A program made the position numbers and the translations under genes. A stretch of DNA of 40,888 nt from a virus: positions 1-40,888 of IMG/VR virus record IMGVR_UViG_3300025168_000197, one strand, 5' to 3'. How positions within the stretch are numbered: the stretch's first letter is position 1; each line of letters opens with the position of its first letter. Shown here in pieces: positions 5,614-11,296 of the stretch. The notes beneath the pieces are model-generated. The model was not told the DNA's origin. It did no database searches and saw only the letters and a list, made by a program, of their open reading frames with translations.

Positions 5614-5631
5614 CTAAGAGTTAACTCTTAG
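5614..5631. repeat. Perfect 18-nt palindrome overlapping the gp23 stop codon
   Basis: CTAAGAGTTAACTCTTAG is fully self-complementary (9-bp arms, no spacer) and contains the gp23 TAA stop. With the terminator hairpin 12 bp further downstream it forms a double-hairpin 3' end on the capsid mRNA. It could protect the message or help ribosome release; alternatively it may be a protein-binding site. The role is inferred. Confidence 0.7.
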
Positions 5632-7298
5632 ACGATGTCGCCACCTACTGCGTAGGCACCCTGGAAGAGTTCACCCTCGTTACCAGTGTTACGGTAGAGT
5701 TCCGGTGTCATGAAGTCAGCACCAGTTCCGATCAGTCGGATAACTCGGTAGAACCTAGAAGCAGGTTGCACTGCGGCCTTACCGTAGCGAGTCAGGATAC
5801 CCTTTCTCGGTTGGAAGGTCTCAGGATCCACGACCGTATCCAGCGGTTGCAGCGGGATGTAAGGGCAGTAGAAGAAGCCTGCGTCCATCGGGCTTGAACC
5901 CTTGTAGCCAACAATGATCTCATCGTCAGGGAACATCGGGTCAACAACCAGATCATACTTACCAGCAAACTTACCCTTGTAAGTGATTTGGCTTCCAGTC
6001 GTGTTCGTAGGACCGTCTTCTCTAGCAAGACCACCCTCAAGCTTCGCAGCCGACTCAAGCAGCGTAGCAATCACTGGCGAAGTAATCAAGACGTTACCCG
6101 GACCACGAAGAGTAGTCTTGTAGATGTCTTGGCTTGCGTGATTGATCAGAGCAAGGACGTTCGAGTAGACTTGACCCAAGTGCTGTGGAGCAAAAGTAGT
6201 CGTGCTATCCGTAAACCGCTTCAGGTCCATCACGAAGATGTTGGAGTACTTTCTAGCGATACCGCCAGTACCGTCAGTGTCTCCCTCAGTGGTCAGAGGA
6301 GCATTAAAGTCATACTCGTAAGCACCAGCAACAAAAACACCACCGTTTGCAGTAGTGGCCGTGGAACCGCCGTTGCCAGTGAAGTTATCTGCACCGGGCT
6401 GGTGAAGACTCTCAATATCCCAACCACCGCCATTCGCAGCAGGACCATAAGCGATCATGCGAATGTCTTCGATCAGTTCACGGTCAATCTCAAGGTTCAT
6501 TTCCTTCGAGAGAAGATCCGTCAGTTCAGCTTCCATGTCAAGGTTATGGTATGCCTTAAGGTCTTGAGCAGCTTCGAGCGTCCAAACGGCTCTCATCTTA
6601 CGCTCACGAGCTTGCACGGTCTGCTTCTGAATGTGCATGTTAACCTCAGGAATGAGGCTACCACGAAGTCGCTCACCAGCCGAAACGGCGTAGCCTAGGA
6701 TCGAGGTACTACTTGGGTATGAAGCAAGTTGACCACCCATCGTAGTCGAAGGCGAACCGTTGCGATCATTAAGAACATTGGACAGGTCAAAGCTAGAAGC
6801 CGTAGGAGCAGCAAATTCGCCAGCCCGAAGACCACTCGCAGGACCAGCAGTCCCAGCCATCCAGTTAGCGTTACCCGCCATAGCGGCTTGCGCTGCGGTG
6901 CCAGTAAAGGAACCGATTGGCTTTGCCGTCAAGTTACGTGGCGTGATGTTGAACTTGGAGTACATCGTTTGCTCAACGTTATCATGTGCTCTGGAGTTGC
7001 CCATGTAGAAGATTTGCGAAACCGGGCCGTCCATGGCCTGGGTAGCACCGATCTTGTTGAACATGAGTTCCGGGTACATGCGACGAATCATTGGGAAGGC
7101 GAACTTTTGGAAAGTGCCGATCTTACCCGTGGTCGTAGCGGTTTGGCTTAGTGCCTCTTCGTTAAGAGTGTTACTCTTAAAAGCTTTTGCTTGGTTTTCA
7201 AACAACCGAGCAGTTTGATAAGCGATGTGATCATCCGCGATACCATCAAGGAGTGGTTCCCAACGCTGTAGTAATTCAGTTCTGTCTATAGCAGTCAT
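5628..7298 (-). CDS. 23: Major capsid protein (T4 gp23-like)
   Basis: A 556-residue protein (T4 gp23 is 521) that forms the hexamers of the head shell. The N-terminus (AELLQRW-type start, EPLLDGIADDHIAYQTARLFENQAK) parallels the T4 prepeptide. The shell domain has FPMIRRMYPELMFNKIGATQ with AMDGPVSQIFYM, a hallmark of T4-type capsid proteins, and near the C-terminus is RYGKAAVQPASRFYRVIRL. Residues L45-N46-E47 fit the L/I-x-E consensus of the gp21 protease, so cleavage after E47 is plausible. AGAGGATAA before the ATG is a strong ribosome-binding site. The gene is visibly richer in G+C and C-ending codons than its neighbours, as expected for the most highly expressed phage gene. Confidence 0.96.
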   Translation of the reverse strand: MTAIDRTELLQRWEPLLDGIADDHIAYQTARLFENQAKAFKSNTLNEEALSQTATTTGKIGTFQKFAFPMIRRMYPELMFNKIGATQAMDGPVSQIFYMGNSRAHDNVEQTMYSKFNITPRNLTAKPIGSFTGTAAQAAMAGNANWMAGTAGPASGLRAGEFAAPTASSFDLSNVLNDRNGSPSTTMGGQLASYPSSTSILGYAVSAGERLRGSLIPEVNMHIQKQTVQARERKMRAVWTLEAAQDLKAYHNLDMEAELTDLLSKEMNLEIDRELIEDIRMIAYGPAANGGGWDIESLHQPGADNFTGNGGSTATTANGGVFVAGAYEYDFNAPLTTEGDTDGTGGIARKYSNIFVMDLKRFTDSTTTFAPQHLGQVYSNVLALINHASQDIYKTTLRGPGNVLITSPVIATLLESAAKLEGGLAREDGPTNTTGSQITYKGKFAGKYDLVVDPMFPDDEIIVGYKGSSPMDAGFFYCPYIPLQPLDTVVDPETFQPRKGILTRYGKAAVQPASRFYRVIRLIGTGADFMTPELYRNTGNEGELFQGAYAVGGDIV

Positions 7299-7302
7299 AC
7301 TA

Positions 7303-7959
7303 TTATCCTCTCAAATTATTATTGAGTTTGTCTAACACGCCTTGATTTATCCATTCGTTAGAATTGACAGCGTGGTTCTCTACTAACTTTTCACTAGCTT
7401 CCTTCACTTTGAAGTTATCTTCACTAATGACGAGTGCCTGATCAGAAAGTTTCCTTTCTGCATTAGAGTTTTCCTTAAGTCTACGGGCAATCTTCTTGAC
7501 CTCGCCTAGGGACTCCTCTAACTTAATGTTCTTGTCCGAAGAGACCTTAACCGATCTCTTAAGATTAATGTTTTCCTTTAGGAGCTTATCTAATTGGTGG
7601 AGGAGAGCATCGTTCTTCTCTTCCTGTGCTTCACCAATAGAAGCTAAGGCATCCATTGCGTTTAGTTCGTCTTGAGGGTTAAGCTCAACAGCGAACATCG
7701 AACGGACACTTTCAAACATTTGAGCGTTTCTAAATGTCTCATTTTCCAGTTCAAGCTCTTTAAGGGCTTGCTCCTTTAACTTCTCCACGTTACCGCGAAT
7801 AAATGAGGTTACCTTGGTGGACAGGTCTTGAACCTCTTCTTGGACCTTTTGTTTTATAGTTACGGAGATGAGACCCGCTACCTTCTCAAGGGTAGACTCA
7901 TCTAAACCCTCGGGCAAGTAACTTGCAACATCCTTAATAACTTCTGATGTGTTTGACAT
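7303..7959 (-). CDS. 22: Prohead core scaffolding protein (T4 gp22-like)
   Basis: A 218-residue, highly charged, almost entirely helical protein between the protease and capsid genes, the place of gp22 (269 residues) in T4. Long coiled-coil stretches rich in Lys and Glu run from about residue 30 to 190, with FESVRSMFAVEL in the middle and an Asn-rich tail. In T4 it forms the bulk of the prohead core and is degraded by gp21 before packaging. Several L-x-E type sites are present, consistent with that fate. The ribosome-binding site AGAGGT is strong, and a late-promoter-like GATAAATA lies about 50 bp upstream. The stop is 4 bp before the gp23 start, so the two are likely co-expressed. Confidence 0.88.
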   Translation of the reverse strand: MSNTSEVIKDVASYLPEGLDESTLEKVAGLISVTIKQKVQEEVQDLSTKVTSFIRGNVEKLKEQALKELELENETFRNAQMFESVRSMFAVELNPQDELNAMDALASIGEAQEEKNDALLHQLDKLLKENINLKRSVKVSSDKNIKLEESLGEVKKIARRLKENSNAERKLSDQALVISEDNFKVKEASEKLVENHAVNSNEWINQGVLDKLNNNLRG

Positions 7960-8019: not shown

Positions 8020-9222
8020 TTAGTAGGAAAAGTTTCTGCCGTGGGTTACTTCCCCATCCCGCTTGTATTCATCGCGGCTTGCTGTTCTCTTCTTAGCAGG
8101 TTTCTTCTTAGCAGGTTTCTTCTTAGCAGGCTTTGGACCAACTTTCTTCTTCTTCTCGCCTCTCCTGGGAGAGTGCCTCTCTCCAGGGGTATGCCTTCTA
8201 TCTCTACCTAAAGAGATATCATCCATGTCTTTGCTACCTTGCTCAACATCATGTCTCTCGGATCGGTTAAGCTCACTAAGATAGGTATTGACTGCCTTAG
8301 AAATACTTTCTTGGAAGCTGGCAGGCTCCTTCTTTGCAGCCTTCTTCTTTGCAGCCTTCTTCTTTGCGGCTAGAAATTTCTTCGGGTCATCTTTAATCGA
8401 GCCTTCTTCGACCTTTTTGGATTTCTTAGCCTTCTTTCCCTTTAGCTTACCCACGAGAATGTCAGCAAATGTAGTCTTACCGTCGCCATTCAAATCAGGG
8501 AACTCACTCTTCTCACCCATCGAACCTTCATCTTGATTTGAATTGCCTCTAAGCATTTCAAAGTCTTCCGAGTCGAGCTTGCCGTTTTTATTCCTATCAA
8601 GCTTTTTTTGCTTACCCTTAAGGGCTTTATTGATCTTGCTTTCAAGCATCGTGAGAAGAACTCTATCCTTCTTATGCTTTGAAACAATTGCTTGAGCACG
8701 CTGGCTGTTTTCTCTCATGGATTCACATATTCCAGGGAAGGCTCCTTTAGTAGAAGGATCGGAAACCAAATCAAAAGTAATAAGTTTGAAGTCTTCGTTA
8801 ACAACCTTGCCCGTAGTGCCCTCAGACACACTACCCAAACCACGACTCGAAATGCCAATCTTCACATTATCGTTAAGAAGAGCTTCCACAATCTTGCCGT
8901 TAGGAGTTGACAAGATCTCAGCCTCACCCATAACATCACCATTCTTCTCAACCCAGAGCTTGGTGATTACGTGGGATGCCTGTGAAAGATGGATCGCATC
9001 GTTAGCAGGGTGATCTAAAGCACCTACCAGTGAGCGATCTCCAATCTTTTCCTGAATAGCCTTTACTTGGTTCTCCAGGATCTTACGAGGGTATACTCGA
9101 CCATTATTGTTCTGCTCGTCACATTTCTGAAACTTGCCAAGAACCTTAAGACGTTTGTTAGCTTTAGTTCCTTCGTTAATAACCTGGAGCTTGTCCAGAA
9201 CAGTATACTCTACTAATAGCAT
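8020..9222 (-). CDS. 21: Prohead core protease (T4 gp21-like) with EF-hand-like and Lys-rich C-terminal extension
   Basis: Residues 1-175 are a T4 gp21-type maturation protease. NNNGRVYP (T4 NRNKRLYP), GALDHP with H71 (T4 GELNHP), and IGISSRGLGS with S125/S126 (T4 GVSSRGLGS) supply the conserved His and Ser. The protein is 400 residues against 212 in T4. The extra half holds two EF-hand/dockerin-like loops: residues 209-220 (D, N, N, G, L, D, D at loop positions 1, 3, 5, 6, 8, 9, 12) and 243-254 (D, N, D, G, D at positions 1, 3, 5, 6, 12). Then come histone-H1-like repeats AAKKKAAKKK (286-299) and KPAKKKPAKKKPAKK (364-378), and an Arg/His-rich segment. The extension may be a core or DNA-binding part fused to the protease and later cleaved off; its function is unknown. 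Confidence 0.93.
   Translation of the reverse strand: MLLVEYTVLDKLQVINEGTKANKRLKVLGKFQKCDEQNNNGRVYPRKILENQVKAIQEKIGDRSLVGALDHPANDAIHLSQASHVITKLWVEKNGDVMGEAEILSTPNGKIVEALLNDNVKIGISSRGLGSVSEGTTGKVVNEDFKLITFDLVSDPSTKGAFPGICESMRENSQRAQAIVSKHKKDRVLLTMLESKINKALKGKQKKLDRNKNGKLDSEDFEMLRGNSNQDEGSMGEKSEFPDLNGDGKTTFADILVGKLKGKKAKKSKKVEEGSIKDDPKKFLAAKKKAAKKKAAKKEPASFQESISKAVNTYLSELNRSERHDVEQGSKDMDDISLGRDRRHTPGERHSPRRGEKKKKVGPKPAKKKPAKKKPAKKRTASRDEYKRDGEVTHGRNFSY
8090..8130. repeat. 15-nt tandem repeat encoding (A)KKKP units
   Basis: TTCTTAGCAGGTTTC repeats in tandem, 2.7 copies, within the 3' end of the protease gene. It encodes the KPAKKKPAKKKPAKK stretch. The copies are identical at nucleotide level, which suggests recent expansion by slippage. 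Confidence 0.85.
8329..8370. repeat. 15-nt tandem repeat encoding KKAAK units
   Basis: CTTCTTCTTTGCAGC occurs about 2.8 times in tandem (one copy 3 nt shorter, the last with one substitution). It encodes the AAKKKAAKKKAAKK stretch of the protease extension. It is separate from, but analogous to, the repeat at 8090-8130. Confidence 0.83.
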
Positions 9223-9224
9223 GA

Positions 9225-9632
9225 TTATTTTTTCTGTTTGCGAGACCAGTATTTCTTGCCTCTAAATTTTTCACTCTTCTGCTTGCCATGACGAAGCATA
9301 GTTCGCACTGAGTACTTCTTTACATCAGAGAATTTGGAAGGTATTGAGCCAGGGGAGAAACCCTTAGCTGTTCTGCCTCCGACTTCCTGCTCATCATCCT
9401 TTCCCCACTTCTGCTTAGTGATTACGTATAACCTGTCTGAGCCTTCAGTTGAAAAAATTTGGCCGAGGAATCCCTTCTTCAAAGCATCCGTGATCGACTT
9501 GTAAACTTTCACCCTAGACTTAGAAGCCTTGCTGTGAGTTTTCTTAGAAGAAGATTGCATCTTCTCTCTACCTTTAGCTGACCCCTTAGCCTTAGTGGCT
9601 CGGGTTTCATTTATTAATTTTAGTAGATCCAT
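9225..9632 (-). CDS. Basic prohead-core-region protein (T4 gp68 position, unrecognised)
   Basis: A 135-residue, strongly basic protein directly upstream of the protease gene; the stop is 2 bp before the gp21 start. The N-terminal 50 residues are Lys/Ser/Ala-rich and probably disordered (KAKGSAKGREK, SSSKKTHSKASKSRVK). A small mixed domain follows (KSITDALKKGFLGQIFSTEG, DRLYVITKQKWG), and the C-terminus is again basic (KFRGKKYWSRKQKK). In T4 the genes between the portal and protease encode small core proteins gp67 and gp68, so this is a candidate core protein. No sequence identity to gp68 (141 residues in T4) can be claimed. The start overlaps the preceding gene by 26 bp. Opposite charge to the acidic neighbour at 10077-10379 suggests they could interact. 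Confidence 0.6.
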   Translation of the reverse strand: MDLLKLINETRATKAKGSAKGREKMQSSSKKTHSKASKSRVKVYKSITDALKKGFLGQIFSTEGSDRLYVITKQKWGKDDEQEVGGRTAKGFSPGSIPSKFSDVKKYSVRTMLRHGKQKSEKFRGKKYWSRKQKK

Positions 9633-10071
9633 TCTTCTTTACCTTGAAAGGCTTCGCGCTCTTAGGAGGATAAGCATCACTCTGACGCTTAAGCATTAAC
9701 TTTTTCCCAACGCCTGTTCCAAGGCATCCGGTGCTAGTCATCTCAGACATAACGACTTTGGCCTCTTTAAGTAACTCTGAGAGTCTCTCTACAAGACTTT
9801 GCATTCGCTCTTCTAGCCTTTGAGCTTCGGACAAAGAATCCTCTTGAAGAGGCTCTTCATTCTTCTGCTCATTTAAAGGAGAGGCTCCTGCAAACGAAAG
9901 AATAGAATTAACGTAATCGTCAGATACCTCTACACTCCCCACATCAAGTATGGGCTTTGCCGGAGCAGTAGGGTTATCCATCTGCTTCGTTAGAGCTACC
10001 TCTTTCACCTCAGGAGTTCCAGCCAGTATCCCTTCTGAAAGGGCTAGCAACTTCTTCATATCATAAGACAT
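9607..10071 (-). CDS. Putative prohead core protein, unrecognised
   Basis: A 154-residue protein. Residues 49-58 read VSDDYVNSIL and closely match VSDEYVKSVL at residues 6-15 of the next upstream protein, so the two share a short motif. A predicted helix or coiled coil spans about residues 75-112 (LSEAQRLEERMQSLVERLSEL). The C-terminal 35 residues are basic (KKLMLKRQSDAYPPKSAKP, then KVKKNG). Its position between the core proteins and the protease suggests a prohead core or internal protein. It ends inside the next gene (26-bp overlap). Function is inferred from location only. Confidence 0.6.
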   Translation of the reverse strand: MSYDMKKLLALSEGILAGTPEVKEVALTKQMDNPTAPAKPILDVGSVEVSDDYVNSILSFAGASPLNEQKNEEPLQEDSLSEAQRLEERMQSLVERLSELLKEAKVVMSEMTSTGCLGTGVGKKLMLKRQSDAYPPKSAKPFKVKKNGSTKINK

Positions 10072-10076
10072 AAAGA

Positions 10077-10379
10077 TTACTCCTCTTCGTATTCTTCTTC
10101 TAGATCCTCGTCAGACTCTTCTAAAGTCTCACCTTCAGATTCAACAGCCTCGTTTAGAGCGTCGAGAATAAACTCAACACACTCGGCCATACTTTCCTCC
10201 GACACAGGAGCATCAAGCTCCGACTCGCAAAGAGGGCAGGCATGCTCGGCTTCCGACTCTTCCACAACTTCAGCCTCTACTTGGGCTTCCGCTTGGGAAG
10301 ACTCATCGATCTTGCCAACCAAATGATTAGCGGCTAAAACAGACTTGACGTATTCGTCACTAACATCTAAGTACTTCAT
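10077..10379 (-). CDS. Highly acidic small protein, possible gp67-like core protein
   Basis: A 100-residue protein with an extremely acidic C-terminus (the last 20 residues are nearly all Glu/Asp). T4 gp67 is a prohead core protein of 80 residues with the same kind of acidic tail and the same general location upstream of the protease, so an analogous role is likely. The N-terminus carries VSDEYVKSVL, shared with the neighbouring 154-residue protein. There is also a CPLC pair (C48, C51) and a third cysteine at C67, too few for an obvious zinc finger. It is the first gene after an 80-bp gap that contains a late-promoter-like box, so it probably starts a head operon. Confidence 0.62.
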   Translation of the reverse strand: MKYLDVSDEYVKSVLAANHLVGKIDESSQAEAQVEAEVVEESEAEHACPLCESELDAPVSEESMAECVEFILDALNEAVESEGETLEESDEDLEEEYEEE

Positions 10380-10459: not shown

Positions 10460-11296
10460 CTACCGAGGAATCACCCTAGCATCGAAGGATACCTCTTTTG
10501 TGATTACTGAAGTAGCCAATCCATAGATAATTCTAACCGTAGTAGGTAGAAGCTTTAAGAATCTCTTAGCATTCGCAGGGTCTCTAGGAGGTATGAATCC
10601 TGGGAGCAACGTCAAACTTCCCGCATTATCTACAGTAAATGGACCCTCCACCATTTCAAACCTCACAAAGGGATCTAATGGCTGTAAGAATATAGGAGGT
10701 GCAGTGGAGGGTAAAGTAGGAGCACCTTGGTTCTGATAACTAATAAACGAGTTCCCAGTAAATTCCTCTTCAAGATTTATTCTAAAGCCATTAGAAGGCT
10801 GTGGTGTAAGAGCTTCAGGCTTCCAAGAATTCCAGGACTCTTCTATTCCATCTAGGTTAGAAGTGAAAGTTATGGTCATGTCAGCTAAAAGATTTACATT
10901 ATAGGATACACCAATGTTAGTAACCACATATCCAACTTCTTCACCGACATTTGCTTCAGGGGAGCCTCCAGGGATAACTTCGAGGATATTACCTCCACCG
11001 TTTGCATATACAGTACCCGCAAGAGTTTCAGCAGCATCTCCACACCCCATAGGATCTCCGTCTCGTATGACTGGAATTGAATTTACGAATACAGTAGGAC
11101 TGCCCTTAAGGGCTATCACATCGTGAGTAGTAGGAGGACTCGTACACCCCGGAGGATGAACGGTTAAGTCGCCTTCAACTATAGCTAACTGTCCCTGCAC
11201 ATAAACACCGGAAGGGCTGTTGAGTTGAGACTCCATTGGAGCAGGAGGCCAGCAGTGACCCTGAGTAAGATCTCCTTGTTTAGCAATCAGAGGCAT
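10460..11296 (-). CDS. PAAR-type spike tip protein with C-terminal extension
   Basis: A 278-residue protein. Residues 1-100 have a PAAR-type pattern: an early GD..QGH (H14), VEGDLTVH (H47), further H58, then VFVNSIPVIRDGDPMGCG with C85. PAAR domains form a sharp zinc-binding cone on the end of the central spike (T4 gp5.4, VgrG/PAAR of type VI secretion); His and Cys residues like these hold the metal. Residues 110-278 are a beta-rich extension with no motif I recognise. It would sit on the gp5-like spike encoded at 30003-31097, about 19 kb away. Its ATG overlaps the previous gene's stop (TAATG). Confidence 0.82.
   Translation of the reverse strand: MPLIAKQGDLTQGHCWPPAPMESQLNSPSGVYVQGQLAIVEGDLTVHPPGCTSPPTTHDVIALKGSPTVFVNSIPVIRDGDPMGCGDAAETLAGTVYANGGGNILEVIPGGSPEANVGEEVGYVVTNIGVSYNVNLLADMTITFTSNLDGIEESWNSWKPEALTPQPSNGFRINLEEEFTGNSFISYQNQGAPTLPSTAPPIFLQPLDPFVRFEMVEGPFTVDNAGSLTLLPGFIPPRDPANAKRFLKLLPTTVRIIYGLATSVITKEVSFDARVIPR

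Follow-up and report, generated by a model that had tools for sequence, protein, structure and literature searches.

Why would the prohead protease of a T4-like phage carry a C-terminal tail longer than its own catalytic domain? The question is raised by an open reading frame of 400 aa (positions 8020-9222, minus strand) in a 40.9-kb IMG/VR fragment of an uncultured T4-like phage, which was analysed at its full length of 40,888 nucleotides and is referred to below as the window. The role of C-terminal autocleavage in gp21-type proteases is described in the literature as an open gap (PMC9026906, PMC5694885). The first-pass annotation of the window had suggested that, through a pair of EF-hand/dockerin loops in the added half of the protein, the protease could be folded or activated under the control of calcium. 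The protease itself is known; what is new here is a gp21 with a hypervariable modular tail.

Residues 23-162 (8737-9156, minus strand), which can be aligned to the T4 gp21 structure 5JBL, match the Peptidase_S77 family (PF03420; E = 2.7e-24, 86 bits against a curated cut-off of 27), and the ORF matches PHROG 207 (phrog_207, head maturation protease, E = 2.4e-45). In the Foldseek search with the AlphaFold2 model of the protease, the chains of 5JBL were the only PDB matches with E < 0.001, and a profile of the clade cores found 5JBL only (E = 1.3e-22). H71 and S125, both kept in the relatives, align with the two active-site residues that are replaced by Ala in the 5JBL chain, H85 and S140 by count of the construct. 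Thus, the ORF is a T4 gp21-type (Pfam S77) prohead protease with approximately 230 extra residues, the unusual added half being as first described. The phage records that were sampled hold annotated gp21 homologues of 193-231 aa, hence 400 aa is long for gp21. In the AlphaFold2 model of the whole protein (mean pLDDT 54.8) the tail is mostly without confidence, as disordered regions are.

The order of the neighbouring genes, small core genes-21-22-23, is that of T4-like phages, with RB49 used for comparison. The protease and the five neighbours listed next are on the minus strand. Upstream of the protease lie a small, conserved basic gene (9225-9632), the N-terminus of which, MDLLKLINE↓T, resembles a capsid-targeting or cleavage peptide (here and below the arrow marks the putative cut); a small gene in the gp68 position (9607-10071) with LALSE↓G in its N-terminus; and a small acidic protein in the gp67 position (10077-10379) with a HACPLCES motif conserved across the clade. 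Downstream, the gp22 position is occupied by a short scaffold of 218 aa (7303-7959), assigned by its position and the conserved N-terminal LPEGLDE, followed by the major capsid protein gp23 (5628-7298), in which LNE, at about residue 46, is a putative propeptide site. Membership of the protease in the prohead core, as initially proposed, is probable. No tRNA or Rfam match was obtained in the window. An unusual neighbour for the T4-like order is a PAAR-motif protein (10460-11296), encoded just upstream of the head core genes.

The survey of the extension covered 75 complete non-redundant relatives from IMG/VR, with a few phage records. Among them the catalytic core of approximately 168 residues is conserved, whereas the tail varies from 9 to 637 residues and the total length from 192 to 834 aa, the median in the uncultured clade of the window being 417 aa. 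Since some relatives have tails of 9-10 residues, the tail is dispensable in these. For pairs with core identity of at least 95%, the median tail identity is 35%. In the pair L156/L034 the cores are 99% identical and the tails 19%; in L132/L142, 98% and 23%, respectively. The window shares 93% of the core and 32% of the tail with L006, and 92% and 24% with L114. All these are protein values, as DNA values from a gap-tolerant aligner overstate the similarity of swapped tails. The DNA identity of gp22 and gp23 in tail-swapped pairs is 81-97% where both could be measured, and 85-97% in most of these pairs. Assembly chimaeras were considered and rejected, as several tails were met again, almost unchanged, in other metagenomes of independent origin (L002/L003, L011/L120, L036/L038). 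Judged by these alignments, the protease tail is a hypervariable string of interchangeable short modules over a constant core.

The tail of the window's protease can be read part by part. The two loop-bearing modules, A and B, are considered below; they are followed by module C (VEEGSIKDDPKKF, residues 271-283; 8374-8412, minus strand), which is common to other tails and contains a VxE↓G motif. Next come a Lys-rich block with KKAAK (KKKAAKKKAAKK, residues 287-298; 8329-8364, minus strand), a distal segment (residues 302-345; 8188-8319, minus strand) and a second Lys-rich block with KKPAK (KPAKKKPAKKKPAKK, residues 364-378; 8089-8133, minus strand). The distal segment is common to L006, which retains it as FxESISKAVNTYLSELNRSERH..ISLGRDRRHT. 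Both Lys-rich blocks had been noticed before, and the tail was called histone-H1-like; the Lys-rich composition is there, but Pfam gave no match to a linker-histone family or a globular winged-helix domain in the 400-aa protein, and the likeness is limited to the Lys/Ala/Pro content.

Two putative autocleavage motifs flank the catalytic domain. The N-terminal one, INE↓G (E17; 9169-9180, minus strand), has Glu in 80/80 aligned homologues and fits [LI]xE in 95% of them; the C-terminal one, ICE↓S (E167; 8719-8730, minus strand), has Glu in 80/80, [LI]xE in 90% and [LIM]xE↓[AGSN] in 97%. Only these two of the eight conserved Glu columns show [LI]xE in at least 90% of the 80 sequences, although E167 may be conserved for structure. 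T4 gp21 cleaves after L/I-x-E (PMC9026906), and in its structure the N-terminal segment, thought to be self-cleaved, blocks the active site (PMC9958956). The C-terminus of T4 gp21 has ITE↓S close by in the alignment with the clade cores, and nearly all of 52 N-termini of the clade's major capsid protein carry [LIM]xE, placed so that the QKFAFP core ends 23-25 residues further on. Within the tails, [LI]xE↓[AGSN] was observed 95 times against 29 expected, the controls [LI]xD and [LI]xxE not being raised; with similar contexts merged, 34 remain against 26.9, so we treat this excess as weak and do not use it as a main argument. The window's own tail has no strict [LI]xE↓[AGSN] past the core, only VEE↓G. 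We found no proteomics for this clade.

The modules also occur outside the protease. At least 558 of 599 candidate IMG/VR stretches contained module B (FPDLSGDGKVTxKDILMGRGVIKK) or the A+B context, and the best 80 of the 558 show it in dozens of otherwise unrelated ORFs of marine phages, often of 50-330 aa; the sampled ones adjoin portal or terminase genes in virion gene clusters. A bacterial origin of this module was rejected, as it was found at only three loci among 84,980 species genomes of bacteria and archaea, against at least 558 IMG/VR relatives. Module A is also present in unrelated proteins (L041, L085, L086). Module E (RCWKGYxPxxGKKxYSxGSC) was found in 58 further ORFs (L213-L270), three of which are gp21 tails; many module-E ORFs are stand-alone, of 38-60 aa, and others follow capsid-targeting-like leaders. 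Module D (CWGDRYDE) was found in gp21 tails or open-ended fragments only, most of the latter reading as such tails, with the exception of a variant in a separate ORF of L034.

In several relatives (L034, L119, L128, L155, L018/L169, L172) segments of the tail type stand as ORFs of their own between genes 21 and 22, and a segment fused to the protease in L017 is encoded separately in L018/L169. The separate ORFs of L034 and L155 (MSAFRNYLSE↓GVVK...) have the same first ~105 residues and differ at the C-terminus, one having module D and the other module E. A separate ORF at this place, L034:2558-2995, has KWVDIGAPKKGGGYKPCGR and LCPKGKAAAKRKYDVYPSAYANMYAS segments, which are also seen near module-B ORFs in other phages (L053, L059, L079, L100). 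Several module-E ORFs start with MKNYKDFVTE↓AG, MKTFKEYIEE↓ or MKKFKNFVTE↓, closely resembling the leader of T4 IPII/IPIII (MKTYQEFIAE↓A; NC_000866), while of the module-B ORFs of other phages 1/35 has a capsid-targeting-like leader. These capsid-targeting-like N-termini belong to ORFs that have modules in common with the tails; the window's tail sits C-terminal to the protease. In L180 (3445-4998) gp21 is almost tail-less, and at least four small ORFs with variable bodies have a common N-terminus of ~35 residues (xxHENFIxRVIQALVEMRLDE↓GIVK, ending in LDE↓(V)G(I/V)VK), resembling an internal-protein gene family.

We consider it fairly probable that the tail is a cleavable, hypervariable part of the protease resembling core or internal proteins. 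The fused protease and tail would enter the prohead core; once active, the protease would cleave its own chain behind E17 and E167, using the same (L/I)xE motif as that near the N-terminus of the capsid protein. The cut at E167 would free the tail inside the head. The tail could then act like T4 core and internal proteins, targeting the protease to the core and filling it, and its basic modules would probably remain on the DNA after packaging or exit as peptides. A bolder version, which we put forward tentatively, is that the protease gene serves as a loading dock for swappable modules, a calcium-folded docking module among them, which come in part from a pool that unrelated marine phages also use; once fused to the protease, carried into the core and released by its self-cleavage, these would serve as host-specific internal proteins, either packaged or injected.

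Known systems offer parallels to parts of this arrangement. The window's protease shares with T4 gp21 the catalytic domain and catalytic positions, the gene order and [LI]xE near both termini, and differs from the sampled gp21 homologues in its ~230-aa modular tail and in the company of a gp22 of 218 aa only. The T4 internal proteins IPI-III are likewise small, variable head cargo, and the leader of IPII/IPIII has its counterpart in ORFs with tail modules; in T4, however, they are separate genes, whereas here most relatives have comparable sequence joined to the protease. In herpesviruses, the assemblin-scaffold fusion places the maturation protease in one chain with the core or scaffold part that it cuts off. 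The arrangement here is analogous, though there it is the scaffold that is fused, while here gp22 is separate and the tail hypervariable.

The closest competing explanation, which we regard as rather unlikely, is that the tail is a core-targeting propeptide and nothing else: basic, of low complexity and discarded at maturation, its sequence drifting under few constraints and its modules having no cargo function. It has a precedent in phiKZ gp175 and SPN3US gp245, where a C-terminal region beyond the catalytic domain is auto-removed after Glu, prohead targeting of the enzyme being its inferred role; these proteases, however, belong to the S80 family, have AxE or S/AxE specificity and a modest tail (gp245 has 263 aa), and the papers on them report no module shuffling (PMC9026906, PMC5694885). 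It would also agree with the composition of the tails, which are typically 20-30% Lys/Arg, and with the disordered appearance of the window's tail in the model. Drift, on the other hand, leaves unexplained the modules common to other ORFs and phages, the tails of up to 637 aa and the purifying selection on tail blocks. We favour the broader, internal-protein-like reading. The relatives constitute a natural module-swap series on the C-terminal region of the protease over near-identical cores; conserved motifs resembling cleavage sites mark both edges, and elsewhere these modules exist as separate genes with internal-protein-like leaders; thus, whether the tail targets, fills or loads the head is directly testable.

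Selection on the tails bears also on another possibility, that the modules are recombination-borne passengers, either selfish short peptides or debris of recombination hot-spots, that do little for the protease. Fast swapping between near-identical cores would be expected of passengers, and in some pairs (the window with L002, the window with L006, and L045/L149) dS of the common tail blocks is lower than dS of the core, which fits later exchange of the modules, though the blocks were chosen by similarity and core dS is near saturation. At the same time, dN/dS in homologous tail blocks is 0.05-0.47 (where dS > 0) against 0.00-0.04 in the cores; by this measure the homologous blocks are under purifying selection. 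Together with the reading frame, which is preserved in complete relatives despite the swapping, and with the location of the sampled module-B ORFs in virion gene clusters, this makes mere passengers improbable.

The remaining question is that of the loop pair. Residues 209-256 match Dockerin_1 (PF00404) with 24.2 bits against a curated cut-off of 22.9. Module A (LKGKQKKLDRNKNGKLDSEDFEMLRG, residues 201-226; 8545-8622, minus strand) contains loop A (DRNKNGKLDSED, residues 209-220; 8563-8598), and module B (FPDLNGDGKTTFADILVGKLKG, residues 241-262; 8437-8502, minus strand) contains loop B (DLNGDGKTTFAD, residues 243-254; 8461-8496). The loops are 34 residues apart, as originally noted, and two such loops arose in 0/20,000 shuffles of the protein; loop B deviates from the strict PROSITE EF-hand pattern at position 8 (T) only. 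Like type I dockerins and EF-hands, the modules have two loops of 12 residues that follow D-x-N/S-x-D/N-G and have D as the twelfth residue, and 12 A+B modules compared show little or no variation at the predicted calcium-ligand positions; unlike in type I dockerins, A and B can each occur alone, and their conservation extends past the ligands (FPDL, GRGV, LRG). In the model of the 75-aa A+B module (pLDDT 67, pTM 0.29) A forms helix 3-19, a loop and helix 29-35, and B a loop and helix 63-72. Thus, at low confidence, the helix-loop-helix is predicted for loop A, and for loop B only a loop and a helix. Almost all Foldseek matches of this module are EF-hand proteins, but they are weak, none having E < 0.001, and the PDB sequence search with the loop pair also gave weak EF-hand matches only.

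Among the 75 complete relatives, 52 have neither loop, ten have both, seven only B and six only A, hence there is no obligate pairing in this set. On the core-only tree loop A needs at least 11 gains or losses, and loop B at least 12. Proteins with identical cores differ in their loops: L156 has none and L034 has A+B, while L045 has A+B and L145 only B, L145 being cut by the contig end. L006, the nearest to the window on the core tree, lacks both loops while its distal tail is similar, a finding that the first-pass annotation had itself named as refuting its proposal. As far as such comparisons go, loops A and B are separable short modules, and the pair is one optional insert, probably a small docking element that would fold upon calcium binding; the protease does not need it. 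A calcium switch governing folding or activation of the protease, the purpose first proposed for the tail, is therefore highly improbable in spite of the dockerin match, the invariant ligand positions and the EF-hand bias of the structural matches, since neither loop is present in most relatives, L006 with its closest core among them, and A and B are found apart and repeatedly gained or lost.

Dockerin or EF-hand modules in prohead proteases, hypervariable protease tails and a module family of ~25 aa were not found described in the open-licence papers searched. The data point to such a family of phage peptide modules, represented by B and E, spread across unrelated phages, near packaging genes in the sampled ones. 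Module B is also present in gp44 of the cultured Pelagibacter phage HTVC027P (L192:4995-5261), annotated as hypothetical and located directly after an 834-aa protein; this pelagiphage is a system suited to testing module B.
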